Assembly (NCBI RefSeq): GCF_016919705.1 | Contig: NZ_CP070369.1 | Coordinates: forward strand, 186,001 to 250,000 | Source of the DNA: Paracoccus methylovorus | GTDB lineage: Bacteria > Pseudomonadota > Alphaproteobacteria > Rhodobacterales > Rhodobacteraceae | Length of the DNA: 64,000 nt | Reading direction: 5' to 3' | Shown: positions 4,615-59,756 of the stretch, piece after piece | Numbering within the stretch: the first letter of the stretch is position 1 | Layout: every line of letters begins with the position of its first letter | Position numbers and translations under genes: made by a program | The notes under the pieces: model-generated | Told to the model about the DNA's origin: nothing | The model's database searches: none | What the model saw: only the letters and a program-made list of their open reading frames with translations

Positions 4615-6555
4615 ATGACCGTCACCATCGACCGCCAAGGGGAAATCGCCGTCGTCACCGTGGACAACCCGCCCGTCAACGCGCTTGGTCAGGCGTTGCG
4701 GCAAGGGTTGTGGGATGCGGTGGGCACGCTGGACGCCGACCCCGAAATCCGGGCGGTGGTGCTGGTCTGCGCGGGCCGCACCTTTATCGCCGGTGCCGAT
4801 GTGACCGAATTCGGCAAGCCGCCGGTGCCGCCGCATCTGCCCGATCTGGTCGCCCGGATCGAGGCCGCCGCGAAACCTTGGGTCGCGGCCATCCACGGCT
4901 CGGCCCTTGGCGGCGGGCTTGAGGTCGCGCTGGGATGCCGCTGGCGGGTGGCGGTCCCCGATGCTTCGCTGGGCCTGCCCGAGGTGACGCTGGGCATCGT
5001 TCCCGGCGCGGGCGGCACGGTGCGCACGCCCCGCGTCATCGGTGTCGAGGCTGCGGTGGACATGGTGACCTCGGGTCGGCCCATGCGCGCGGCTCAGGCG
5101 GCCAAAGCCGGGTTGATCGACGCGGTGATTCCGGGCGATCTGCTGCCCGGCGCCGTGGCATTTGCCCGGCAGGCGCTGGCGCTGCCCATGCCCAAAGCTG
5201 CCTCGGCCCGATCCCTTGCCGCCCCCGATGCGGCTTTCTGGGCGGAAAAGGAAAAATCCGTGGCCAAGGCGGCCAAGGGTGCCGCCGCGCCCTTGCGCGC
5301 GCTGGCCTGTCTGCGCAAAGCCGCCGAAGCGCCCTTTGACGAGGCCATGGCGTTCGAGCGGGAAACCTTTCTGAACCTGCGCGGCTCGGATCAGGCGGCG
5401 GCGCTGCGCCATGTGTTTTTCGCCGAACGCGCCGCGCCGCGCCCTGCCGCGCTGCGCGATGTGGAACCGCTGGCCCTGCGCCGCGCGGCGGTGATCGGCG
5501 GCGGCACCATGGGGGCGGGGATCGTTGCCGCCTTGCGCGATGCCAGCCTGCCCGTCATCCTGATCGAGCGCGACGACAACGCCGTCGCGCAAGGTATTGC
5601 CAATCTGCGCGGCATCTTTGACGGTGCGGTCAAGCGCGGCAAACTGACCCCGGCGCAGGCCGCCGACCGGCTGGCGGGTGTCGCGGCAACCACCGATTAC
5701 GCGGTGCTGGCGGATGTCGATCTGGTCATCGAGGCGGTGTTCGAGGAAATCGGCGTCAAGCGCGCCGTATTCGACCAGCTTGGCCGGGTCTGCCGCCCCG
5801 ATGCGGTGCTGGCGACCAATACCTCTTATCTCGATCCGCGCACGATTGCCGAAGGGGTGCCCCATCCCGAGCGCTTTATCGGTCTGCATTTCTTCAGCCC
5901 CGCCAATGTCATGAAACTGCTGGAGATTGTGCCCGCACCGCAGACCTCGGAACGCACGCTGGCGACCGGCTTTGCGCTGGCGCGGCTGTTGAAAAAGATT
6001 CCCGTCCGTTCCGGCATCTGCGAAGGCTTCATCGGCAACCGCATCCTGAAACGCTATCGCGCCGCGGCCGAGGCATTGGTGCGCCGGGGCATCCCCATTG
6101 CCGAGGTCGATGCGGCCATGCGCGGCCATGGTTTCGCCATGGGCCCATTCGAGGCGCAGGATCTGGGCGGGCTCGACATCGCCTTTCTGCAGCGCGAGGG
6201 GGCAAGGGCGGCGGGTCAGGACGTGCCTGAAACGCTGGGCGACATTCTGGTGCGCGCCGGCCGCAAGGGGCAAAAGACCGGCGGCGGCTGGTATGACTAT
6301 GCCCCGGGCGAACGCAGGCCGCTGCCCTCGGCGATTGTGACCGAACTGCTGGCGGGCGCGATCACCCCCGGCGCCGCGATGGAGCGCGAGGCGGTCGCCC
6401 AACATCTAGTCGCCGAAATGGCGGCCGAGGGGCAGGCGATTCTGGACGAAGGCATCGCGCAAAGCCCCGCCGATATCGATCTGGTCAAGATCCACGGCTA
6501 TGGCTTCCCGCGCTGGCGGGGCGGGCCGATGTTCGCCACGGGCATTCGTTCCTAA
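4615..6555 (+). CDS. Bifunctional enoyl-CoA hydratase / 3-hydroxyacyl-CoA dehydrogenase (FadB/FadJ-like), apparently short at the C terminus
   Basis: Beta-oxidation enzyme that hydrates enoyl-CoA and oxidises the 3-hydroxyacyl-CoA with NAD. The N-terminal crotonase domain has the oxyanion-hole segment GSALGGGLE and the two catalytic glutamates at residues 103 and 123 (LPEVTLG). The central NAD-binding domain has GGGTMG at 295-300 and the [15 protein letters not shown] motif, and a C-terminal dehydrogenase domain follows. At 646 residues it is shorter than typical family members (about 700). It stops a few residues after the conserved [13 protein letters not shown], where relatives continue for some tens of residues. 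It is co-transcribed with the liv importer (3-base gap), suggesting it degrades the imported compound. No alternative frame downstream restores the missing tail. Confidence 0.9.
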
Positions 6556-6632
6556 GGGGGGCAAGATCCCAGTGCCGGGTGTCGTATCGCATAGCCCCCG
6601 GCGGCTGGCCGGCCCTACCTGACAAGGCTGCG

Positions 6633-6787
6633 CGAGCCTGTCCCTGTGGGTGGCGTTTGCGGATATCCATGATATTTTGCTCCGGGTCAGGTTACGCGCC
6701 GGACCTTGGCCCCTGCCTTGTAAGCCCCGCGCCGACAATCGTTTGGAGCCCGGAAAATGAATTTACAGCAAGCCCTGCGAGGCACCG
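6633..6787 (+). ncRNA. ssrS: Candidate 6S RNA (ssrS)
   Basis: A stretch without protein-like coding lies directly upstream of the 5-formyl-THF cyclo-ligase gene, the classical genomic position of 6S RNA in proteobacteria. What is seen: a 5' part CCCTGTGGGTGGCGTTTGCG followed by GATAT, and a 3' part TTTACAGC then CCCTGCGAGGCACC, which resembles the E. coli 6S 3' strand (TTACAGC, then CTGCGGCGGCATC). The size, about 155 nt, fits alphaproteobacterial 6S RNA. 6S RNA binds the sigma70 holoenzyme through a large central bulge and lowers housekeeping transcription in stationary phase. The boundaries are estimates; the call rests on synteny and motif memory, not on a covariance search. Confidence 0.62.
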
Positions 6788-6788
6788 C

Positions 6789-7475
6789 ATGAGCGGCAGG
6801 GACGGCGCGGGCGATTTTGCCTCTCCGCCCTGTCTGGCATCGCAGATCGCGCCGGATTATTTCGACCCGCTGGCCGTCGATCCGCAGCAGGCCACCGACG
6901 TGGCGCGTTGGCGCAAGGCGCAGCGCGAAGAGCTGCTGGCGCGCCGTGTGGCGCTGAGCGTCGCGGAAAGGCAAGAGATCGCGACAGCCATTGGCAAGGC
7001 GCTGGACGCGCTGCTGGTCCAGCGGTTGCCGGATGTGCGGGGCAGGGTGATCTCGGGCTATTGGCCGATCCGCTCCGAACCCGACCTGCGCCCTTGGCTT
7101 GCCAGCCTGCATGAGCGGGGCGCGATCCCGGCTCTGCCGGTGGTCGAGCGCCGCGCCAGCCCACTGGTCTTTCGCCCATGGCGCCCCGGCGCGGCGATGG
7201 AACGCGGCCACTGGAATATCCCGGTCCCTGCCACCACCGAAACGCTGGTGCCGGATGTGGTGCTGGCCCCATTGGTCGGCTGGGACGCCGCGGGCTATCG
7301 GCTGGGTTATGGCGGCGGTTACTTCGACCGCACACTGGCCGCGCGCCAGCCGCTGGCGATCGGCGTCGGGCTGCAATCCGCGCGGCTGGCGACGATCTAT
7401 CCGCAGCCCCATGATATCGCACTGGCTGCCATCATCACCGAATGCGGATGCCAATACTCCTCGCCGCAGCCTTAA
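6789..7475 (+). CDS. 5-formyltetrahydrofolate cyclo-ligase
   Basis: Converts 5-formyl-THF to 5,10-methenyl-THF with ATP in the cytoplasm (the YgfA/MTHFS family). The 228-residue product has the C-terminal signature LGYGGGYFDRTLA and the conserved SGYWPIRSEPD region that binds the folate. I chose the ATG at 6789 because it gives MSGRDGAGDFASPPCL, an N-terminal segment seen on alphaproteobacterial homologues; longer in-frame starts run through the putative 6S RNA. The linkage ssrS-ygfA is conserved across proteobacteria and supports both calls. The end at 7475 is followed by 119 bases with no recognisable feature apart from the ribosome-binding site of the next gene. Confidence 0.9.
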   Translation: MSGRDGAGDFASPPCLASQIAPDYFDPLAVDPQQATDVARWRKAQREELLARRVALSVAERQEIATAIGKALDALLVQRLPDVRGRVISGYWPIRSEPDLRPWLASLHERGAIPALPVVERRASPLVFRPWRPGAAMERGHWNIPVPATTETLVPDVVLAPLVGWDAAGYRLGYGGGYFDRTLAARQPLAIGVGLQSARLATIYPQPHDIALAAIITECGCQYSSPQP

Positions 7476-7594
7476 TGCGGGTGCGCCCAAGTACGAAAAA
7501 ATCTTGCCGGGCGCGGCGACGATTTCTTGTCCCGCGACGTTGAACGACAGCCGGGAACCTGCGTTTACCAGCGGCAGGCAGAAAAGGAAGACGA

Positions 7595-8137
7595 ATGACC
7601 AAGACAATTCTGGGCCTTAGCGGCAGTTTGCGTCGCGCCTCGTTCAACACCGGGCTGCTGCGCGCGGCAGCCGATCTGGCGCCCGAGGGGGTGCAGATCC
7701 AGATCGGCTCGATCCGCGAGGTGCCGCTTTACGATGGTGATCTGGAGACAGCGTCCGGTCTACCCGAGCCGGTGCGCGTCCTGCAATCGCAGCTTGCCGC
7801 GGCGGATGCGCTGCTGCTGGTGACGCCTGAATACAACAATGGCGTGCCGGGCGTGTTCAAGAACGCCATCGACTGGATGTCGCGCGGCGACGGGCTGGCG
7901 ATGTTCGTGGGCAAGCCGGTGGCGGTGATCGGCGCCTCGCCCGGCGGGTTTGGTACGATCCTGTCGCAAAGCCACTGGCTGCCGGTGCTGCGCACGCTCA
8001 AGGCCGCGTTGTGGACCGAGGGACGGCTGATGGTGTCGCGGGCCGGGTCGGTGTTCGACGATCAGGGCAACCTGACCGACGACAAGACGCGCACGCAGTT
8101 GCGCGATTTTCTCAGGGGCTTTGCCGCCAGCTTTTGA
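7595..8137 (+). CDS. NADPH-dependent FMN reductase family protein
   Basis: A 180-residue flavodoxin-fold reductase of the ChrR/SsuE/YieF group (PF03358). The phosphate-binding loop GLSGSLRRASFN sits at residues 6-17, the conserved TPEYNNGVPGVFKNAIDW segment lies in the middle, and the VIGASPGGFGT flavin loop comes later. Such enzymes use NAD(P)H to reduce FMN, quinones or chromate in the cytoplasm; which applies here cannot be read. The start is supported by AAGGAAG eight bases upstream. It is probably its own transcription unit, ending before the hairpin at 8204. Confidence 0.88.
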   Translation: MTKTILGLSGSLRRASFNTGLLRAAADLAPEGVQIQIGSIREVPLYDGDLETASGLPEPVRVLQSQLAAADALLLVTPEYNNGVPGVFKNAIDWMSRGDGLAMFVGKPVAVIGASPGGFGTILSQSHWLPVLRTLKAALWTEGRLMVSRAGSVFDDQGNLTDDKTRTQLRDFLRGFAASF

Positions 8138-50031: not shown

Positions 50032-52479
50032 ATGCCCGATCTTCCCCGTTCCGCCCGCGTCGTCATTATCGGGGGCGGCATTTCTGGCTGCTCGGTCGCC
50101 TATCATCTGGCCGAGCGGGGCTGGACCGATATCGTCCTGCTGGAGCGCAAGCAGCTGACCTGCGGTACCACATGGCATGCCGCGGGGCTGGTCGGCCAGT
50201 TGCGCGCCAGCCAGAACATGACGCGGCTGGCTAAATATTCCGTCGATCTTTACCGCCGGCTTGAGGCCGAGACCGGGCTGGCCACCGGCTTTAGCCAGCG
50301 CGGTTCGATGACCGTGGCACTGACCGAGGCGCGGCGCGAAGAACTGTTGCGTCAAGCCTCGATGGCCCGTGCCTTCGGCGTCGAGGTGAATCAGCTTTCG
50401 CCAAGCGAAATCAAAACAATGTATCCGCATCTTGAGGTGTCCGACATCGTGTCGGGCGTGCATTTGCCGGGCGACGGGCAGGCGGATCCGACCAATATCG
50501 CGCTGGCTCTGGCCAAGGGCGCACGGATGCGCGGCGCCCGCATCATCGAGGGCGTCAAGGCCACCCGCGTCACCACCGACCACGGCCGCGTGACCGGCGT
50601 GGACTGGCAGGCGGGCGAGGAAACCGGCCATATCGCCGCCACCATGGTGGTGAACTGCGGCGGCATGTGGGGCAGGGACCTTGCGGCACAGAACGGCGTC
50701 GCCCTGCCGCTGCATGCCTGCGAGCATTTCTATATCGTCACCGAGGCGGTGCCGGGTCTGTCGCAGCTTCCCGTGCTGAGGGTCCCCGACGAATGCGCCT
50801 ATTACAAAGAGGATGCGGGCAAGATCCTGCTGGGTGCATTCGAGCCGGTCGCCAAACCCTGGGGCATGAATGGTATCCGCGAGGATTTCTGCTTTGACCA
50901 ACTGCCCGAGGACTTTGACCATTTCGAGCCGATCCTGGCGAATGCCGTCGCCCGCATGCCGATCCTGGCTGAAACCGGCATCCATACCTTTTTCAACGGC
51001 CCGGAAAGCTTTACCCCCGACGACCGCTATTATCTGGGCGAGGCGCCCGAGGTCGCGGGCTATTGGGTGGCTGCGGGCTATAACTCCATCGGCATCGTTT
51101 CTTCGGGCGGGGCAGGGATGGCGCTGGCCTCGTGGATGGACAAGGGCGAGCCGCCCTTTGACCTGTGGGAGGTCGATATCCGCCGCGCCCAGCCCTTTCA
51201 GCGCAACCGCCGCTATTTGCGCGAGCGGGTGACGGAAACGCTGGGCCTGCTTTACGCCGACCATTACCCCTACCGCCAGGTGGCCACCGCGCGGGGCCTG
51301 CGTCGCTCGGCGCTGCATGAACATCTGAAGGCGCGCGGTGCGGTCTTTGGCGAGGTTGCCGGCTGGGAACGTGCCAACTGGTTCGCCAAGGACGGTGAGC
51401 CGCGCGAATACCGCTATGGCTGGGGGCGGCAAAACTGGTTCCACAACAGCGCCGAGGAGCACCGCGCCCTGCGCGAAGGCGTAGGGCTGCTGGACATGTC
51501 GAGCTTTGGCAAGATCCGGGTCGAGGGGCGGGACGCGCTTGCCTTTCTGCAGCAGCTTTGCGGCAACGACATGGACGTAGCGGCCGGCCGGATCGTCTAT
51601 ACCCAGATGCTGAACCAAAGCGGCGGCATCGAAAGCGATCTGACGGTGACGCGGCTTTCCGAGACCGCCTTTCTGCTGGTCGTGCCGGGTGCGACGCTGC
51701 AACGCGATCTGTCGTGGCTACGCCGGCATCTGGGCGGCGAATTCGTCACCATCACCGACATCAGCGCCGCCGAGGCGGTCATCCCGGTGATGGGGCCGCG
51801 CTCGCGCGAACTGTTAGCCCGCGTCTCGCCCGACGATTTTTCCGCCGAGGCACACCCCTTTGGCTTGGCACGAGAGATCGAGATCGGGCTGGGATTGGCG
51901 CGCGCGCATCGGATCTCTTACGTCGGCGAGTTGGGATGGGAGCTTTACGTCAGCACCGATCAGGCCGCGCATGTCTTCGAAGAACTGGTCAGCGCCGGCG
52001 AGGATCTGGGCCTGCGCCTGTGCGGGCTGCATGCGATGGACAGTTGCCGCATCGAAAAGGCCTATCGCCATTTCGGCCACGACATCACCGACGAGGATCA
52101 CGTGCTGGAGGCGGGCCTGGGCTTTGCGGTCAAGACCGGCAAGGGCGATTTCATCGGACGAGAGGCGGTGCTGCATAAGCGGGAAGCGGGCCTGTCGCGC
52201 CGATTGCTGCAATTCCGCCTGCGCGATCCCGAACCGCTGCTGTTTCACAACGAACCGATCCTGCGCGACGGCCGTATCGTCGGGCAACTGACCTCGGGCG
52301 CTTACGGTCATACGCTGGGCGGCGCCATCGGTCTGGGCTATGTGCCCTGCCGCCCGGATGAAACGGTCGCGGAACTGCTGGCCTCGGGCTGGCAAATCGA
52401 GGTCGCGGGCCGCCTGATCGGGGCCGAGGCCAGCATGAAACCGCTTTACGATCCTGCCGGCCAACGGACCGCCGGCTGA
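50032..52479 (+). CDS. GcvT-family FAD-dependent dimethylglycine/sarcosine dehydrogenase
   Basis: Cytoplasmic demethylase of N-methylated glycines that passes the methyl carbon to tetrahydrofolate, 815 residues. The N-terminal DAO domain has RVVIIGGGISGCSVAYHLAE, and TTWHAAGLVGQL has His49 at the place where FAD is covalently bound in dimethylglycine dehydrogenase. A middle FAO_M-like domain is followed by a GCV_T folate domain from about residue 440 (LLDMSSFGKIRVEGRDALAF, YVGELGWELYVSTD, GLHAMDSCRIEKAYRHFGHD) and a GCV_T C-terminal barrel. Whether the substrate is dimethylglycine, sarcosine or another N-methyl compound cannot be decided. It is probably controlled by the divergent XRE-cupin gene. 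Confidence 0.9.
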   Translation: MPDLPRSARVVIIGGGISGCSVAYHLAERGWTDIVLLERKQLTCGTTWHAAGLVGQLRASQNMTRLAKYSVDLYRRLEAETGLATGFSQRGSMTVALTEARREELLRQASMARAFGVEVNQLSPSEIKTMYPHLEVSDIVSGVHLPGDGQADPTNIALALAKGARMRGARIIEGVKATRVTTDHGRVTGVDWQAGEETGHIAATMVVNCGGMWGRDLAAQNGVALPLHACEHFYIVTEAVPGLSQLPVLRVPDECAYYKEDAGKILLGAFEPVAKPWGMNGIREDFCFDQLPEDFDHFEPILANAVARMPILAETGIHTFFNGPESFTPDDRYYLGEAPEVAGYWVAAGYNSIGIVSSGGAGMALASWMDKGEPPFDLWEVDIRRAQPFQRNRRYLRERVTETLGLLYADHYPYRQVATARGLRRSALHEHLKARGAVFGEVAGWERANWFAKDGEPREYRYGWGRQNWFHNSAEEHRALREGVGLLDMSSFGKIRVEGRDALAFLQQLCGNDMDVAAGRIVYTQMLNQSGGIESDLTVTRLSETAFLLVVPGATLQRDLSWLRRHLGGEFVTITDISAAEAVIPVMGPRSRELLARVSPDDFSAEAHPFGLAREIEIGLGLARAHRISYVGELGWELYVSTDQAAHVFEELVSAGEDLGLRLCGLHAMDSCRIEKAYRHFGHDITDEDHVLEAGLGFAVKTGKGDFIGREAVLHKREAGLSRRLLQFRLRDPEPLLFHNEPILRDGRIVGQLTSGAYGHTLGGAIGLGYVPCRPDETVAELLASGWQIEVAGRLIGAEASMKPLYDPAGQRTAG

Positions 52480-52558
52480 CGTTCCCGGCTGGGAAATCCG
52501 CCCGCCGACACACCCTTTCCGCGAAACAGGCAAATCCTCACAACCAGTTGATGAGCCG

Positions 52559-52594
52559 GGGGAATGCGAGCCATTCCCCTGTTTTGGGGAATGG
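52559..52594 (+). promoter_or_regulatory. Mutually exclusive hairpins in the leader of the signalling unit
   Basis: CATTCCCC (52572-52579) can pair with GGGGAATG on its left (52559-52566, loop CGAGC) or with GGGGAATG on its right (52586-52593, loop TGTTTT; extended to 9 bp as CCATTCCCC/GGGGAATGG). Only one can form at a time, the layout of a switchable RNA. I do not recognise a known riboswitch class. Confidence 0.55.
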
Positions 52595-52622
52595 CCGCAA
52601 CCCATCCGAACTGCCATGAATG

Positions 52623-52685
52623 CGCCTGTCCAAGGGGGTTCGTGCTGATTGCCGCGAACGCCTTCCCATCCCTTTTGGACAGGCG
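52623..52685 (+). terminator. Long stem followed by T run, possible terminator or sRNA end
   Basis: CGCCTGTCCAA (52623-52633) pairs perfectly with TTGGACAGGCG (52675-52685), 11 bp, around a 41-base loop that itself contains GTTCG/CGAAC. GTTTTAT follows directly. It could terminate the dehydrogenase transcript, end a small RNA starting further upstream, or attenuate the downstream operon. Confidence 0.5.
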
Positions 52686-52702
52686 GTTTTATAACGAGTA
52701 CG

Positions 52703-52751
52703 CCGGTCTGAACCGGAGGTGACGAGGATGGTATGCGTGGGCTGTACCTGA
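52703..52751 (+). promoter_or_regulatory. Shine-Dalgarno hairpin and possible 7-residue leader peptide
   Basis: CCGGT/ACCGG (52703-52707 and 52712-52716) form a hairpin whose 3' arm runs into the excellent Shine-Dalgarno GGAGGTGA (52715-52722). The first ATG after it (52728) opens a 7-codon frame MVCVGCT ending at 52751. A second ATG at 52733 is in frame with the following exported protein. Either a cysteine-bearing leader peptide precedes that gene, or the gene starts at 52733 with a longer N terminus. Confidence 0.45.
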
Positions 52752-52804
52752 GCCCGCGCATGCCTGCCCGCCACTGTCCCGCCGCTGCTTTGGAGCCAGC
52801 CCGC

Positions 52805-53320
52805 ATGCGTCCTTCGACCAAAGCGATCATCGGCAGAAGAGCATTCGTCCTGCTGGGGGCTGCGGCTTTTACGCCGGTCTCGCCCCTTTTCGCGCAAGCG
52901 CCCAAGGCGATGCTGACGATCACTGAACCGTCCGGCAAGGTCAGGGAACTGCAGGACGAGGATATCGCGGCACTGCCTTGGCAAGACATCGCCACGAAGA
53001 CCCGCTGGACCGAAGGGGTTCAGAACTTTCGCGGGCCGTTCCTGCGCGACGTGCTGACCAGCGGTGGAATGACCCGGTCGGATCTTGCGGGGCGCAATCT
53101 TTTGATGAACGCGCTGAATGATTTCGGGATCGTCATGCCCGCCGACGATGCGTGGAACTATGATCCCATCCTTGCCCGCGAGATGAACGGAAAACTGATG
53201 CGGGTGCGCGACAAGGGCCCGCTATGGCTGGTCTTTCCACGAGATCACCGGGCAGAGCTGCAAAACGCCGTCATGGACGAACGCTGGATCTGGCAGTTGT
53301 TCGAAATCATCGTGTTATGA
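52805..53320 (+). CDS. Small exported molybdopterin-fold (sulfite oxidase-like) protein without cysteines
   Basis: A 171-residue protein with a signal peptide containing twin arginines (IGRRAFVLLGAAAF, cleavage near residue 31 after FAQ). The mature part resembles the oxidoreductase molybdopterin-binding fold (PF00174): LTITEPSGKVRELQDEDIAA, NFRGPFLRDVLTSGGM, LNDFGIVMPADDA and GPLWLVFPRD. It has no cysteine at all, so it cannot supply the usual Mo ligand and is shorter than enzymes of the family. The stop overlaps the histidine kinase start by 4 bases, suggesting a periplasmic sensor partner for the kinase rather than an enzyme. GGAG precedes the ATG at 52805, but a start at 52733 is possible. 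Confidence 0.75.
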   Translation: MRPSTKAIIGRRAFVLLGAAAFTPVSPLFAQAPKAMLTITEPSGKVRELQDEDIAALPWQDIATKTRWTEGVQNFRGPFLRDVLTSGGMTRSDLAGRNLLMNALNDFGIVMPADDAWNYDPILAREMNGKLMRVRDKGPLWLVFPRDHRAELQNAVMDERWIWQLFEIIVL

Positions 53321-54744
53321 CGCGTTTGCGGGGATCGCATTTTGCGCTTCTGACGATTGCATGTTTCGTTCTGCTGTTCATCTATTCGCTCGTCCAACTG
53401 GTCAACATCGACCGCGCCTTCCGCAGCGAGATCGTCGAGGGCAATTTATGGGTGGCGACACAGGCGGATCGCGAGGCGCAAAACCTGATGCTGACCCTGT
53501 ATCGGGTCAGCCTGGACCGCGATGTCGCCGACGTTTTGCTGCGTTTCGACATCCTTTACAGCCGAATCACGCTGATGGCCGACGCGCCGCAGATAGCTTA
53601 TTACCGCTCGATCGGCGCGGGCGACCAGGTCTTGCGCGCCCAAGTGATGCTGGATCGGCTGGATGAGGCGTTTTCGGCCGATGATTTCGACTTTACCGAT
53701 GCCGGCGGATTGATGCCGCAGGTGGCCGCGCTTTCATCGGTCCTGCGCACCATCACCAATGCCACCGCGCTGGAAGAACGGCTCGACCGTAACACCCGAC
53801 GCGAGACCGTGCTGCGGGTCATGCGATTGCTGCTGTTTGCGGCCGGCGGCACCTTTCTGACCGGCGTGGTCATGGCCGGCCAGCTTTGGCGGAACATGCG
53901 CCGCTCCATGCGCGCCCAATCAGAACTGCAAAGCCATCGGGCCGCGCTGGAGGAAACCGTCGTCGCCCGAACAAAAGAACTGCAAGAGGCGCTGGAGGTC
54001 GAACGCCGGGCGAAAGAGGTCTATCGCAGTTTTATCATCACCGTCTCGCATCAGTTCCGCACCCCGGTATCCATCATCCATATGATCGCGCAAAGGCAGT
54101 TGCGCAGCGACGATGCCTCGCTTTCGGACGCGCTTCGGCGCAAATTCAGGCGGATCCTTGATGCGGCTGAACGGCTGGAGCGGTTGCTAAGCAGTTTTCT
54201 GGCCTCGGCCAGTGTCGAGGGCAAGGATATCACGCTGTCGCGCCGGATCGTGGATCTGAACAAGATCGCCGGAATCGCCGTTGAGCAGATCAGAGAGGCC
54301 AATCCCAACCGGACCCTTGACGTCCGCCTTTGGAAACGGCCGCTGAAAATGGACGGCGACCCGGTGCTGTTGGAGCAGGTAGTGCTGAACCTGCTGTCCA
54401 ATGCCGTGAAATACTCGGACCCCCCGAAACCGGTGCGACTGGAAACGGGGCGGAACGGCGCCCGGATCTTTTGCCGGGTCAAGGATTACGGCGCGGGCAT
54501 TCCGCAATCCGCGCAGGGTGCGGTTTTCGACAGGTTTTATCGTGCGGCGAATGTCCACCGATTGCCCGGAGTCGGGGTTGGCCTGAGCCTTGTTCGTGAT
54601 ATTGTCGTGCTGCACGGCGGCGAAGTCACCTTCACGTCGCGCGAGGGTAAGGGTTCCGAGTTCACTGTTGCCCTACCGGCTACGGGAGAGCATGTCGATG
54701 TGTCGGGAGCACGCACCGGCCACCATTCTGTGTGTCGAGGATGA
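53317..54744 (+). CDS. Membrane sensor histidine kinase
   Basis: A 475-residue kinase. Transmembrane helix 1 is near residues 8-28 (FALLTIACFVLLFIYSLVQL), a periplasmic helical region covers about 30-165, and helix 2 is around 170-192. A coiled-coil linker (SELQSHRAALEETVVARTKE) leads to the dimerisation domain with phospho-acceptor His245 in VSHQFRTPVS and the ATPase domain (NLLSNAVKYSD, VKDYGAGIPQ, GVGVGLSLVRDIV). It overlaps the exported Moco-fold gene by 4 bases and the response regulator by 53 bases. The sensor region is not a family I can name. Confidence 0.9.
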   Translation: MTRLRGSHFALLTIACFVLLFIYSLVQLVNIDRAFRSEIVEGNLWVATQADREAQNLMLTLYRVSLDRDVADVLLRFDILYSRITLMADAPQIAYYRSIGAGDQVLRAQVMLDRLDEAFSADDFDFTDAGGLMPQVAALSSVLRTITNATALEERLDRNTRRETVLRVMRLLLFAAGGTFLTGVVMAGQLWRNMRRSMRAQSELQSHRAALEETVVARTKELQEALEVERRAKEVYRSFIITVSHQFRTPVSIIHMIAQRQLRSDDASLSDALRRKFRRILDAAERLERLLSSFLASASVEGKDITLSRRIVDLNKIAGIAVEQIREANPNRTLDVRLWKRPLKMDGDPVLLEQVVLNLLSNAVKYSDPPKPVRLETGRNGARIFCRVKDYGAGIPQSAQGAVFDRFYRAANVHRLPGVGVGLSLVRDIVVLHGGEVTFTSREGKGSEFTVALPATGEHVDVSGARTGHHSVCRG

Positions 54745-55342
54745 GGAATTCATCCTTGAGGAACTGGAAGAGGAACTCTCTTCCAGGGGCTATAGAGTCC
54801 TGACCGCGCTGAATGGCGACCAAGCCGAGTCCCTGCTGGCCGACTATCGCCCCGATATCGTGCTGTGCGACGTCATGCTGCCGGGTCGCAGCGGTGTCGA
54901 ACTGCTGACCGACCTGCGCGCGTCGGGCAAGCTGGCCCATACCACTGCCTTCATCTTTCTGACCGCGCTATCGGATCGCGAGCCCCATCTGGCGGGGCTG
55001 CGCGCGGGCGCCAACGACTATCTTACCAAGCCGATCGACCTGGATCTTTTGCACCTGAAGATCGAAAATATCCTGACCTTCTCGCACCGGCTTCGTGATG
55101 GCGTTGCGGCTGCGGATGCGCCGCGCAACGTGCACCTGTCGCGCCGCGAAGAGCAGGTCCTGACCCTGCTGGGGCAGGGCGAGCGGACCGGGGCCATCGC
55201 ATCGCGGCTGGAAATCTCGGAACATACGGTCAATCATTATATCAAAGAGTTGTATCGCAAGCTGGGCATCAACAACCGCGCGGATGCCGCCCGGGTGGCG
55301 ATTGCACTGGGGCTGGTCGGTCGCAAGAAGTTTCGGGCCTGA
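54692..55342 (+). CDS. Response regulator with LuxR-type DNA-binding domain
   Basis: A 216-residue regulator. The receiver domain has ILCVEDEEFI, phospho-acceptor Asp60 in DIVLCDVMLPG, and the switch region FLTALSD with the conserved Lys in YLTKPID. A LuxR/FixJ-type helix-turn-helix follows (LSRREEQVLTLLGQGE, IASRLEISEHTVNHYIKELY). It starts inside the kinase gene, after GGGAG, and is the output of the kinase. An ATG two codons later is possible. An 8-bp GC hairpin follows the stop at 55347-55370. Confidence 0.9.
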   Translation: MSMCREHAPATILCVEDEEFILEELEEELSSRGYRVLTALNGDQAESLLADYRPDIVLCDVMLPGRSGVELLTDLRASGKLAHTTAFIFLTALSDREPHLAGLRAGANDYLTKPIDLDLLHLKIENILTFSHRLRDGVAAADAPRNVHLSRREEQVLTLLGQGERTGAIASRLEISEHTVNHYIKELYRKLGINNRADAARVAIALGLVGRKKFRA

Positions 55343-55398: not shown

Positions 55399-55749
55399 AT
55401 GACCGGCATGAGTGAAAGCCTGCCTCCGTGCCCCGAATGTTCGTCGACATACACCTATCAGGTGGATGCCCTTCTTACTTGCCCCGAATGCGGGCATGAA
55501 TGGTCCCTGCAAGAGCAGGCCGACACCGAGGCCGAGGTGCGCGACAGCGTCGGCAACGTCCTGAAGGACGGCGATACCGTGACGGTTATCAAGGACCTGA
55601 AGGTCAAGGGGTCGTCCTCGGTGGTCAAGGTCGGCACCAAGGTGCGCGGGATCCGGCTTGTCTCGGGCGATCACGACATCGACTGCAAGATTGCGGGCAT
55701 CGGACAGATGGGCCTGAAATCGCAATTCGTGAAAAAGGTCTCGGACTAG
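55399..55749 (+). CDS. PhnA/YjdM-family zinc-ribbon protein
   Basis: A 116-residue cytoplasmic protein with an N-terminal zinc ribbon ([20 protein letters not shown], then CGHEW; two CxxC pairs) and the C-terminal PhnA domain ([38 protein letters not shown]). The family was named alkylphosphonate uptake protein, but no role in phosphonate use is established, and it is nearly 40 kb from the phn cluster here. Start ATG 55399 or 55408. A perfect 10-bp hairpin follows the stop. Confidence 0.9.
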
Positions 55750-55792: not shown

Positions 55793-55884
55793 CGGCAAAC
55801 TGTCGATAGCCGCAAAACTTGACAGTTTATGTATGGTATAGGAAAAGGGCAGGGCACTTCGACCCTTTCCCCCGGCACCCGCCA

Positions 55885-56625
55885 ATGTCGCATCACCTGC
55901 ACCATGAACTGCGCGATCTGCTTGCCGGCCAGCATGACTGGTTGCTGATGCTTCTGGCGCAGGATGACGATCTGCGGACCCGCATCCCCTTTGCGCGGCT
56001 GACCGACATGCGGATTCTGGAGGGCCTGCTGCTGAAATTCGCGGCCTCGCAGCCGCAGGCGCCGCGCGGGGCAATCGTTTCGCTGTGGTCGCAGTATTAT
56101 TTCGCCAGCCTTTGCTTGCCATTGGCGGCCTCGGTGCTGGTGACGGGGCGGATGTTCATGCCGCTGGACGGGTCCGGGGTTGTCTTTGACGATCAGGGCA
56201 AGCCAGCCGCCATTCAGTTGAGTATCCCCAAGACCCCGCGCAATCTGCCCGAATTGTCGCTATATCAGGCGATGAATGACCATCTGATTCCGATGACGGC
56301 GGTTCTTGCGCAGGCGGGCGGCATTTCCCAACGCGTGATCTGGGGCAACGCCTGCCATTACCTGGAATGGCTCACAAACTGGTTGGCCGAGGATGAGCGC
56401 CTGTCATGCGAAGGTGCGCGCCAGTCGCGGCTGTTCATGGACCGCGACCACCTGCCCGATGGGCGGGTCAACCCGCTGAAGGGTGCGATCCGCTATGAAG
56501 GGCTGGACAGGTTGCCGGAACTGCGCCGGCGCAAGGTTTGCTGCCTGCGCTATTGCATCCCCGGCACGGCGACATGCGGCGGGCTTTGTCCCAAACCCGA
56601 CATCCGGCAAAGGGCTCTGGCATGA
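55885..56625 (+). CDS. FhuF-like siderophore-iron reductase
   Basis: Cytoplasmic [2Fe-2S] protein that reduces ferric siderophores to release iron, 246 residues. The C-terminal cluster motif is RRKVCCLRYC with CGGLCP, that is CC-x10-C-x3-C, compared with CC-x10-C-x2-C in E. coli FhuF, plus an extra cysteine inside the x10 segment. The N-terminal region carries the FhuF-type ligand domain (SLWSQYYFASLCLPLAASVL). I choose the ATG at 55885. It overlaps the AraC gene by 4 bases and opens the iron cluster. Confidence 0.85.
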   Translation: MSHHLHHELRDLLAGQHDWLLMLLAQDDDLRTRIPFARLTDMRILEGLLLKFAASQPQAPRGAIVSLWSQYYFASLCLPLAASVLVTGRMFMPLDGSGVVFDDQGKPAAIQLSIPKTPRNLPELSLYQAMNDHLIPMTAVLAQAGGISQRVIWGNACHYLEWLTNWLAEDERLSCEGARQSRLFMDRDHLPDGRVNPLKGAIRYEGLDRLPELRRRKVCCLRYCIPGTATCGGLCPKPDIRQRALA

Positions 56626-57569
56626 GCTTTCGTCCCCGCATGACATCCTTTGTCGAGGGAATCTCCCTGTCGCAACCGCTGGCGTGGCGCGCGATGGACG
56701 GCGTGGTCGTGGATTACTGGCAGGTCGAGGGCAAGGCCGGCGGCGGCGGCTATTACCTATCTCCCGACCCCCGCATCGTCATTTTCCTGGATGACATCAC
56801 GCATTCGCTCCACCTGACCAAGGCCACGCTGGGCAAGGGTCATGCCGGCCGTCCAATGGGGCGGGCGATTTTCGTCCCGGCGGGTGTGCCGCTGTGGTCG
56901 CGGCTGGGTGCCGACGAAAAATTCAGCCATGTCGACCTGCATTTCGATGAGCCGCGGCTGGTCAGCCTGCTCGCGTCGCGGCTTGGCAGCGCCGGCTCGG
57001 CTCGGGCGCTGCAGGCTCCGGTGATCCTTGAACGCTCGCACGAGGCCGAGGTGCTGGGCGGACTGCTGGCACAGGAACTCAGCCATCCGCGCCATCACGA
57101 CTTTTATGTCGAGACGCTGGTTCAGGGCATCCTTGCCTCGGTGCTGCCGCTGGCGGACATCGGCCACACGGTCGATGTGCTGGCGTCCCGGCAGATGCAG
57201 CGCGTGATGCATCTGGTCGAGGAAAACCTGCATCGCCGCATCTCGGTTGCCGAACTTGCCGAGGCGGTCGGACTGTCGGAAAGCTGGTTCGCCCATGCCT
57301 TCAAGCGGGAAACCGGCCAGACGCCGCTGCAATGGCAGACCCGCCGACGCATCGAACGCGCCCAGCAAATGCTGGAGCACCCCGACAGCAGCGTGGCCGA
57401 TGTCGCGGCGGCCACGGGTTTCGCGGATCAGGCCCATTTGACACGGGTTTTCCGCAGCATCACCGGCAGCACGCCGGGCGCATGGCGCAAAAATTCCAGC
57501 AATTTGCACGTGCGGGCAGAGGATTCGTCAAAAAGGCGACAGAAATCGTCAAGACCTATGATCGGCTGA
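56622..57569 (+). CDS. AraC-family transcriptional regulator of the siderophore cluster
   Basis: A 315-residue regulator. The N-terminal part is a sensor domain with no strong family name, and the C-terminal AraC/XylS domain has two helix-turn-helices: ISVAELAEAVGLSESWFAHA and SSVADVAAATGFADQAHLTR, with the family RVFRSITGSTPGAWR. Its position between a FhuF-like reductase and a TonB receptor resembles PchR/YbtA-type regulators that activate siderophore uptake when the ferric siderophore is inside the cell; the ligand is inference. The start overlaps the fhuF-like stop by 4 bases. Confidence 0.9.
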   Translation: MSFRPRMTSFVEGISLSQPLAWRAMDGVVVDYWQVEGKAGGGGYYLSPDPRIVIFLDDITHSLHLTKATLGKGHAGRPMGRAIFVPAGVPLWSRLGADEKFSHVDLHFDEPRLVSLLASRLGSAGSARALQAPVILERSHEAEVLGGLLAQELSHPRHHDFYVETLVQGILASVLPLADIGHTVDVLASRQMQRVMHLVEENLHRRISVAELAEAVGLSESWFAHAFKRETGQTPLQWQTRRRIERAQQMLEHPDSSVADVAAATGFADQAHLTRVFRSITGSTPGAWRKNSSNLHVRAEDSSKRRQKSSRPMIG

Positions 57570-57629
57570 CCTCCTAAAGACGAAGGGAACGGACGCCAAA
57601 GGCATTCCGCCCCATCCTCAGGAACTCAG

Positions 57630-59756
57630 ATGATCAAAACCCGCTTTACGCTGCTGATGTTGCTGTCCTGCCAGACCGCCTTGGCTGGAGCCGCCTTCGC
57701 GCAAGATACGATCCAGCTTGATACGGTCGTCATCAACAGCCAGGCTGACGACGGCACCGGACCCGCCATCGGCGCCAATCCGATGACCCTGACGGGCGCG
57801 AAAACCGCGACCCCCGTGACCGAGGTGCCGCAATCCGTTGCGGTCATTCCCAGCGAAACGCTGCGGCAGGGCAATATCTCCAAGCTGGATGGGGCGCTGG
57901 CCTATACCTCGGGCGTGATCGGCCAGCCCTACGGTTATGACAGCGACACCAACTGGATCATGGTGCGGGGCTTTGCGGCGACGGCGAACGGCGTCTTTCA
58001 GGACGGATTGCCGAATTTCTCCTTTGGTTTCGGCGGCTTCTACGTCGACCCTCATATGGTCGAGCGTATCGAGGTGCTCAAGGGCCCGTCATCGGTGCTT
58101 TATGGAAGCTCGAACCCCGGCGGCATCGTCAACTATGTCACCAAGCAGCCCACGGGGCAGAATTCCACCGAGGTCGAGCTTGGCTTTGACGAACATGGCC
58201 GGGTCTGGACCTCGGTCGATCAGAACCGGGTCATCGACCGCTCGACCGCCTATCGCTTTCTGGGCAAGCTGGAACGTCAGGACGGCCACGGCGCATTCGA
58301 GCCGGGTTTCCACGGCCTGCTGTCCGGCTCCATCCGTCACGAGACGGCAGCCGGGGCCGAACTGAGCTTTGGTCTGGATTACCTGCGCATCGACGAGGAC
58401 CATGTCGGCAATGCCTGGCTGCCCTATGTCGGTACCGTGGTCGATGCGCCATTCGGCCGGATCGACCGCGACTTCAACACGGGTGAGCCGGGTCACGACC
58501 GCTACGAACGCGATCAGGTCACGGCCCGCTTCGGCTTTTCCCAAGAAATCGGCGCCTGGCGGATCGAGAACAATGCGCGCATCGGCTGGTCCAATGTCGA
58601 AGAGGATTCGGTTTACGCCTATGGCTATGACGGCTTCGCACTGGAGCCAAGCGATCCGCAAGGAACCCTGTCGCGCCTTGTCTTCGACCATGAATCCGAA
58701 GCGGTCACATTCCTGAACGACACCCGCGCCTCGACCAAGGTCACATGGGGCGGTGCGGAACACAGCCTGCTTTTCGGCATGGATCTGAAATATTTCCGGC
58801 TTGACCAGATGCAGGCGTCGGCAGTGGCGCCCGGGCTGACGGTCGTCGATCCGCAATATGGCGCCGCCTTGCCCGCCGCTTTCCCCTATATCGATCAAAA
58901 GCTGACGCAGCGGCAGATCGGGTTTTATGCGCAGGACCAGATCCGCTGGGGCGACGGCTGGATCGCGACGCTGAACGCCCGCTATGACCATGTGAAAACC
59001 GAGGCGGGCGTGAACCGCGCAACGGGCGCCGCCGGCATGAGCCGGACCGATGGCCGGTGGAGCGGCCGTCTGGGGATCGCCAGAACGCTGCTGAATGGCG
59101 TGACGCCCTATGCCTCTGTCTCGACCTATTTCCTGCCCAAGATCGCTACGGACATCAGTGGGGCCACCTCGTCGCCCGAAACCGGCCGCCAGATCGAGGC
59201 CGGCGTCAAATGGCAGGCCAACGAGGATCTGCTGGTTACCGCCGCCGCCTTTGATATTCACCGCAACAACATCACGCAGGCCGTCATCGGCGGAATCACC
59301 CGCCAGTTGGGTGAAGTCCGGTCGCGCGGCATCGAACTGCAGGCACAGGGCAGGCTGACCGATTCCGTGCGGATCGAGGCCGAGGTGACCAAGCTGGATG
59401 TGGAAATTCTGGACGACCTGAGCCGGGCTGTGATCGGCAAGACGCCCTATTCGACGCCCGAGACCACCGCCGCCGTCCGGGTCAGCTGGACCCCGCAACA
59501 GGCCGCCGAATGGACGCTGACCGGGGGCGTGCGCTGGACCGGCAAAAGCTGGGCCGACAACGAAAATACGCTTCGCGTGCCCGACTATACCGTGCTTGAT
59601 CTTGGTGCGACCCGGCAGTTCGAAGGCGGATGGGAAGCCAATCTTGCCGTCACCAACGTGACGGACAAGAAATACGTCTCCTCGTGCCAGACCGGATTTT
59701 GGTGCTATTACGGCGAAGGTCGCAACATCAGCCTGAGCATCCGCAAAAGCTTTTGA
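57630..59756 (+). CDS. TonB-dependent siderophore receptor
   Basis: Outer-membrane beta-barrel receptor, 708 residues. Signal peptide (about 1-25, ending AFAQ), a TonB-box-like TIQLDTVVI just after it, plug domain (TEVPQSVAVIPSETLRQGN, IMVRGFAATANGVFQDGLPN, VERIEVLKGPSSVLYGSSNP, GGIVNYVTKQP), and a 22-strand barrel ending in the terminal phenylalanine of SIRKSF. Two cysteines near the C terminus (SSCQTGFWCYYGEGR) are typical of the FhuA/FoxA/FpvA type. It is the third gene of the iron cluster, 60 bases after the AraC gene, with AGGAA before the ATG. Confidence 0.94.
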   Translation: MIKTRFTLLMLLSCQTALAGAAFAQDTIQLDTVVINSQADDGTGPAIGANPMTLTGAKTATPVTEVPQSVAVIPSETLRQGNISKLDGALAYTSGVIGQPYGYDSDTNWIMVRGFAATANGVFQDGLPNFSFGFGGFYVDPHMVERIEVLKGPSSVLYGSSNPGGIVNYVTKQPTGQNSTEVELGFDEHGRVWTSVDQNRVIDRSTAYRFLGKLERQDGHGAFEPGFHGLLSGSIRHETAAGAELSFGLDYLRIDEDHVGNAWLPYVGTVVDAPFGRIDRDFNTGEPGHDRYERDQVTARFGFSQEIGAWRIENNARIGWSNVEEDSVYAYGYDGFALEPSDPQGTLSRLVFDHESEAVTFLNDTRASTKVTWGGAEHSLLFGMDLKYFRLDQMQASAVAPGLTVVDPQYGAALPAAFPYIDQKLTQRQIGFYAQDQIRWGDGWIATLNARYDHVKTEAGVNRATGAAGMSRTDGRWSGRLGIARTLLNGVTPYASVSTYFLPKIATDISGATSSPETGRQIEAGVKWQANEDLLVTAAAFDIHRNNITQAVIGGITRQLGEVRSRGIELQAQGRLTDSVRIEAEVTKLDVEILDDLSRAVIGKTPYSTPETTAAVRVSWTPQQAAEWTLTGGVRWTGKSWADNENTLRVPDYTVLDLGATRQFEGGWEANLAVTNVTDKKYVSSCQTGFWCYYGEGRNISLSIRKSF

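Follow-up and report, generated by a model that had tools for sequence, protein, structure and literature searches.

A cysteine-free PruR protein, a sensor kinase and a LuxR-type regulator of Paracoccus methylovorus form a probable pterin-sensing circuit

In a stretch of 64,000 nucleotides from Paracoccus methylovorus contig NZ_CP070369.1 (hereafter the window, to which all coordinates refer unless another locus is named; host assembly of 4.38 Mb in 5 contigs), an exported protein with the fold of molybdenum cofactor (Moco) enzymes, but without a single cysteine, is encoded beside a histidine kinase and a response regulator, and the question is what such a protein does there. The preliminary description of this DNA had proposed an undescribed signalling unit, in which a cysteine-free protein of 171 residues, with a sulfite oxidase-type fold and no molybdenum ligand, serves as a periplasmic ligand sensor that reports to the adjacent kinase, the target lying elsewhere. 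The three genes are on the same strand with overlaps of 4 and 53 bases, as had been claimed, and the translation of the first indeed has 171 residues and no cysteine:

52805..53320, + strand: pruR, 171 amino acids, without cysteine; predicted exported pterin-binding protein with a sulfite oxidase (SUOX)-type fold; residues W68, N105, F107 and W163
53317..54744, + strand: sensor histidine kinase of the DTB (DcpA-TorS-BaeS) type, 475 amino acids; helical DcpA-type N-terminal sensor domain with W45-x7-E53, HisKA (H245) and HATPase domains
54692..55342, + strand: response regulator, 216 amino acids; REC domain (D60) and GerE/LuxR-type DNA-binding domain

Alignment of the regulator with its relatives at loci L036 and L037 begins only at its third residue; the codon there is an ATG, six bases further on, and with it as start the second overlap would be 47 bases. 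Position 52480 is the first base after the stop codon of the upstream gene, and 52480-52804 is therefore intergenic. The best explanation for this trio, which I consider very probable, is a PruR-DTB pterin-sensing circuit with a transcription factor of its own.

The cysteine-free exported protein is PruR, a member of a known pterin-binding family. Its match to Pfam family PF00174 scores 23.5 bits, against a cut-off of 24. A phmmer search of the PDB returned four distinct sequences at E <= 0.001, titled as pterin-binding proteins of the PruR structural set (7kp2, 2.8e-19; 7rkb, 8.8e-19; 7kos, 8.7e-14; 7kom, 2.6e-13), of which 7rkb was solved with neopterin. An AlphaFold model based on six sequences (mean predicted local distance difference test score, pLDDT, of 77.2, with residues 1-31 below 50) also best matches PruR entries, which occupy ranks 1-7 in Foldseek (E 1.8e-12 to 1.8e-10); sulfite oxidases rank behind these, from E 1.3e-6, and the YedY-type 1xdq and 1xdy are found at about 1e-2. 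The agreement with PruR crystal structures settles the sulfite oxidase-type fold, despite the sub-cut-off Pfam score. The nearest named relatives, from Paracoccus sp. MKU1 and P. denitrificans, are 80-82% identical. As a predicted export signal, the N-terminus contains the sequence GRRAFVL, presumably a twin-arginine translocation (Tat) motif; similar motifs are present in four of the five relatives compared (SRRTFVL, GRRAFVL, SRRDLVL and SRRQFAL), and absent from the fifth, in Thalassospira.

The available text of a review on PruR gives reduced pterins as the ligand class of the family, states that a tryptophan replaces the molybdenum-ligating cysteine, and lists Trp160, Tyr104 and Asn102 as the pterin contacts of the Agrobacterium tumefaciens protein (PMC13259868). 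In the window protein, Trp68 is invariant in 6/6 aligned relatives, and aligns with a tryptophan of 7kp2, 7rkb, 7kos and 7kom; following the review's statement, W68 probably occupies the position of the lost cysteine, and the molybdenum ligand would not be kept in these homologues. The equivalents of the pterin contacts are W163 (Trp160), N105 (Asn102) and F107 (Tyr104), and phenylalanine is a substitution that the review lists for Tyr104.

Downstream of pruR, the same source distinguishes two configurations, namely DcpA, with cyclic di-GMP (c-di-GMP) domains, and the DTB kinases, which possess the same periplasmic domain with a WX7E motif (PMC13259868). In the window kinase this motif is W45VATQADRE53, and residues E41, W45, Q49, E53, S82 and R83 are invariant in an alignment of 15 plain-kinase sensor domains (13 of the 17 plain kinases of the genus, together with L004 and L005; L056, where the motif was not found, L066, L128 and L129 were omitted). 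A profile of these 15 sensors aligned by hhalign to five Paracoccus DcpA-type sensor domains, with a probability of 97.2% and an E-value of 3.9e-11 over 189 columns, which shows homology between the kinase sensor and the DcpA-type sensors. The pattern W-x3-Q-x3-E is kept in 6/6 hybrid-kinase sensors aligned separately (6 of 13 hybrids), and a pattern search of the 38 kinases in the family-level sample described below found it in 26, and another WX7E in 2. The AlphaFold model of the kinase sensor is helical (mean pLDDT 81.9; rows L002, L003 and L006 of its alignment start one or a few residues before the likely start), and has no match in the PDB at E 0.001, the best being helix bundles of many kinds, with NarQ/NarX lower.

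Outside the sensor, Pfam identifies only HisKA and HATPase in the window kinase, with no PAS, REC or GGDEF-EAL domain. The TorS model matches it at 1.7e-32, behind seven other models, and the 25 matches listed do not include BaeS. This plain HisKA-HATPase architecture is compatible with the published definition of PruR-DTB systems, which permits "all or a portion of these domains" (PMC13259868, available text). As in those systems, for example that of Ruegeria pomeroyi DSS-3, pruR is directly upstream of the kinase, the kinase has a DcpA-like periplasmic domain with WX7E, and the SUOX fold lacks the molybdenum-ligating cysteine. The assignment of the trio to the PruR-DTB systems is made with high confidence. 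It is also where the preliminary description divides: homology supports a sensor role for the Moco-type fold, next to its kinase and with targets probably elsewhere, while the unit cannot be called undescribed, as the PruR family, its ligand class, the WX7E partner domain and the PruR-DTB configuration had all been published (PMC13259868).

Where the window differs from PruR-DTB, as presented in the available text of the review, is the separate REC-LuxR regulator encoded by the third gene. The term "response regulator" is absent from its main text, and no regulator or target is named there for the kinase branch (PMC13259868); Greenwich et al. 2024, which it cites for PruR-DTB, may differ in this respect. 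Across the genus and the family, kinase-type PruR is regularly accompanied by such a regulator. In 101 Paracoccus genomes, 39 PruR matches were found in 34 genomes, and all 39 loci were classified, using flanks of up to 5 kb and counting duplicates once (L036 = L002, L037 = L003 and L163 = L005). The partner is a plain kinase at 17 loci, a hybrid kinase at 13 and DcpA-type at 6; among the other 3, L054 has a REC match only, and L068 and L131 are weak PruR matches without a partner. A kinase or GGDEF-EAL gene thus adjoins pruR in 36/39 loci. A REC-GerE regulator is adjacent in 27/30 of the kinase-type loci, compared with none of the 6 GGDEF-EAL DcpA loci (L130 being viewed with 1.3 kb upstream only).

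For the plain kinases the regulator is directly downstream at 17/17 loci, and since the succession of pruR, plain kinase and REC-GerE regulator is found in 17 of the 39 loci, the arrangement of the window is beyond chance. At one of these, L038 (G056, 5952-7967, - strand), kinase and LuxR-type regulator share a single reading frame of 671 residues, either a real fusion or a frameshift. The hybrid-kinase loci are less uniform, with the regulator downstream in 6, divergent upstream in 4 and about 3.8 kb off in 1; it was not seen in L050, nor in L127, whose upstream side ends at a contig end. The same trio is present in the Paracoccus denitrificans genome (L003/L037). One Paracoccus genome, G043, has a DcpA-type PruR system in addition to two of the kinase type (L058, L059 and L060).

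At the family level, 138/248 genomes have a PruR match. From at least about 150 matches, a non-random sample of 40 regions was drawn (the three strongest outside the genus, then approximately every fourth), and the regulator was sought within about 3 kb upstream and 4 kb downstream. The partner is a kinase in 38/40 of these regions and was not found in the other 2; a REC-GerE regulator is near 31 of the 38 (at L186, with REC and GerE in separate frames), and was not seen at the other 7. It is divergent upstream in 24 of the 31, downstream in 6, and upstream on the same strand in 1. Trios are accordingly conserved in both the genus and the family-level samples. At L169 and L177, which belong to two further genera, what comes after the PruR kinase is a second gene, matching kinase-like and REC domains, and behind it one for a REC protein; no LuxR-type regulator was seen.

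Enzymes for the supply of a pterin are encoded in the genome. A PruA-like short-chain dehydrogenase/reductase, resembling pteridine reductases, has a YX3K motif (YSLAK) and TGX3RXG (TGGARRLG), the pteridine-reductase signature in the available text of the review (PMC13259868). Its best PDB matches are 5tgd (FolM alternative dihydrofolate reductase, 3.6e-56) and 5bt9 (4e-55), the latter deposited as a 3-oxoacyl-acyl carrier protein reductase. The FolB family and GCHY-1, presumably a FolE2-type cyclohydrolase, are present, and the FolE1 family has no match in the genome. As a side observation, an FkbM-type methyltransferase gene follows dcpA in 6/6 Paracoccus PruR-DcpA loci (L060, L062, L063, L064, L065 and L130; detected by tblastn with the L062 protein, with Pfam PF05050 in 3/3 tested). 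Because A. tumefaciens reportedly produces a pterin for which 2'-O-methylmonapterin has been proposed (PMC13259868), the product of this gene might, as pure hypothesis, be a pterin O-methyltransferase; no paper linking FkbM, methyltransferase and monapterin was found in the open-licence literature.

The intergenic region upstream of pruR has two further features:

52571..52594, no strand assigned: perfect 24-bp inverted repeat CCATTCCCC-TGTTTT-GGGGAATGG, from footprint alignment; likely operator (putative)
52730..52764, + strand: 14-bp hairpin in the presumed 5' leader of pruR; 98/98 cells paired in 7 sequences

The repeat contains ATTCCCC-N6-GGGGAAT, and ends 211 bp before the pruR ATG. Across the subclade of the window, CCATTCCCC-N6-GGGGAATGG and parts of the leader are conserved in otherwise diverged upstream DNA. 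The core TTCCCC-N6-GGGGAA is exact in 7 of the 8 Paracoccus subclade loci (the window, L036, L037, L004, L038, L039 and L041), where its end lies 201-216 bp ahead of the start used; the eighth, L040, shows two mismatches. Of three close trios from other genera, L162 has the core exactly and L163 (= L005) with one mismatch, and in L161 it was not found with up to one mismatch. In the remaining plain-kinase loci of the genus, a check that left out L128 and L129, it has one mismatch in L043, and two in L049 and L066, at a different distance. Upstream of the hybrid-kinase and DcpA-type loci that were checked (L127 and L130 left out), no copy of the core with two or fewer mismatches was found. In its own genome, the site at pruR is the only exact match; a search allowing one mismatch gave 13 sites, compared with 8 for the reversed control. 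A stricter 20-bp pattern, applied to 7 genomes, gave scattered additional sites, and no convincing second target was found among the reading frames at five extra-site loci. One extra site, common to two genomes, adjoins a frame that by eye resembles a TonB receptor. From its conservation, the palindrome is likely the operator through which the regulator of this subclade controls its own operon. L047, L049 and L066 have a different palindrome, CCCCGTTC-GTTT-GAACGGGG, which begins about 75 bp before the start of pruR and is possibly the operator of another regulator subclade.

The leader hairpin has three pairs changed on both sides among the 7 relatives. Its covariation score was reached in 1/500 shuffles, although shuffles of this kind overstate and a set of seven related sequences is small; slid versions pair at 14-52%, and the single-sequence fold has a z-score of -2.95. 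L041, excluded from this set because it did not align there, has in about the same position another hairpin, of 12 bp. A riboswitch was considered, as the leader has by eye a faint look of a cobalamin element, and rejected: Rfam gave no match at gathering score over the whole window, and for 52300-53000 only sub-threshold matches, to microRNA models (best E 0.038).

In the circuit proposed here, exported PruR would bind a small reduced pterin, probably of the tetrahydromonapterin type and made with the PruA-like reductase, in a pocket equivalent to the Moco site of sulfite oxidases. Loaded, or empty, PruR would dock on the W-x3-Q-x3-E face of the helical periplasmic domain of the kinase and alter autophosphorylation at H245; phosphate would then pass to D60 of the LuxR-type regulator, which would bind ATTCCCC-N6-GGGGAAT upstream of its own operon, and presumably other targets elsewhere. 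Computation shows the family, the fold, the homology of the domains, the order of the genes and the conservation of the palindrome, and from these the ligand, the docking, the sign of the effect, the phosphotransfer and the binding of the palindrome by this regulator are inferred. Several points weigh against such a circuit. The Tyr104 position is a phenylalanine (F107). The WX7E motif is not universal, since none was found in the L056 kinase and the pattern search found neither W-x3-Q-x3-E nor WX7E in 10/38 family-level kinases; the periplasmic stretch of the window kinase is by eye about 140 amino acids, against about 190 in the available text of the review (PMC13259868). The palindrome core is absent from the genus plain-kinase loci L042, L044, L046, L047 and L056, and counts over 101 whole genomes reveal no enrichment of the palindrome (23 matches forward, 32 with the reversed control), hence there is no regulon support beyond the operon itself.

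It is conceivable, if unlikely, that what PruR detects is a non-pterin heterocycle or some other small molecule, or else a redox state (reduced as opposed to oxidised pterin), its docking on the kinase being the same. The phenylalanine at the Tyr104 position would fit this, and the review's available text describes the in vivo pterin as unclear and the PruR groups as different (PMC13259868); however, the tryptophan, asparagine and tryptophan positions of the pterin pocket are retained, and the genome encodes a PruA-like reductase. Far less credible is a Moco enzyme or Moco chaperone that adjoins a two-component pair by chance. The PF00174 name attached to the protein, just under its cut-off, would suggest it, but the missing molybdenum ligand already contradicts it, the closest structures are PruR, including neopterin-bound 7rkb, and the genus counts given above show pruR next to a kinase or GGDEF-EAL gene at nearly every locus.

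As for the palindrome, another regulator might use it, or it might be an RNA or terminator hairpin unrelated to the LuxR-type regulator, which I regard as somewhat improbable. In favour of this, it lies 211 bp from the ATG, can be drawn as a hairpin, and is missing or mismatched in most other plain-kinase trios; no convincing site was found near other genes, and the regulator is only its presumed binder. Its arms are nevertheless conserved in sequence amid diverged flanks, it is also kept where the divergent upstream neighbour needs no terminator there (L037, L038 and L004), it accompanies the trio in a second genus, and it was not found at the hybrid-kinase and DcpA-type loci tested. An autoregulatory operator stays the likely role.

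The trio has as neighbours, by eye, a dimethylglycine-dehydrogenase-like gene, a cupin regulator and a caspase-like gene, as well as phnA. A functional link was considered and rejected: these genes accompany the trio in close relatives alone, and not always in the same combination, and are therefore treated as chromosomal context. The gene just downstream (55399-55749) encodes a YjdM/PhnA zinc-ribbon protein, and L003/L037, L004 and L038, three distinct relatives, likewise have it close to the trio. It is followed at 55819-59756 by what resembles, by eye, a siderophore uptake locus, with a FhuF-like ferric reductase, an AraC-type regulator and a TonB-dependent receptor.

Compared with PruR-DcpA of A. 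tumefaciens, the window has a homologous PruR (7kos in the phmmer search) and, through the Paracoccus DcpA-type proteins, a homologous periplasmic partner domain. The outputs differ, c-di-GMP turnover by GGDEF-EAL domains in that system, and kinase domains with a LuxR-type transcription factor here. With the Moco enzymes sulfite oxidase and MsrP (YedY), the window PruR has a common core fold, but it has no cysteine ligand, 171 residues versus roughly 260-460 in the matched chains, and a regulatory gene context.

Pterin signalling via PruR has been elucidated for a single output, the c-di-GMP of Agrobacterium. The sensor family is already known, and the useful details added here are a linked regulator and a likely DNA site for self-control. 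That the trio is a complete three-component circuit, leading from excreted, redox-sensitive pterins to transcription and autoregulated via the palindrome and a structured leader, and that it is a widespread counterpart to the c-di-GMP branch, I would put at even chances. With a regular regulator partner and a candidate operator, the kinase branch can be put to a direct test in tractable bacteria, Paracoccus denitrificans among them. What this branch of PruR signalling gains is ordinary in kind, and useful in detail.

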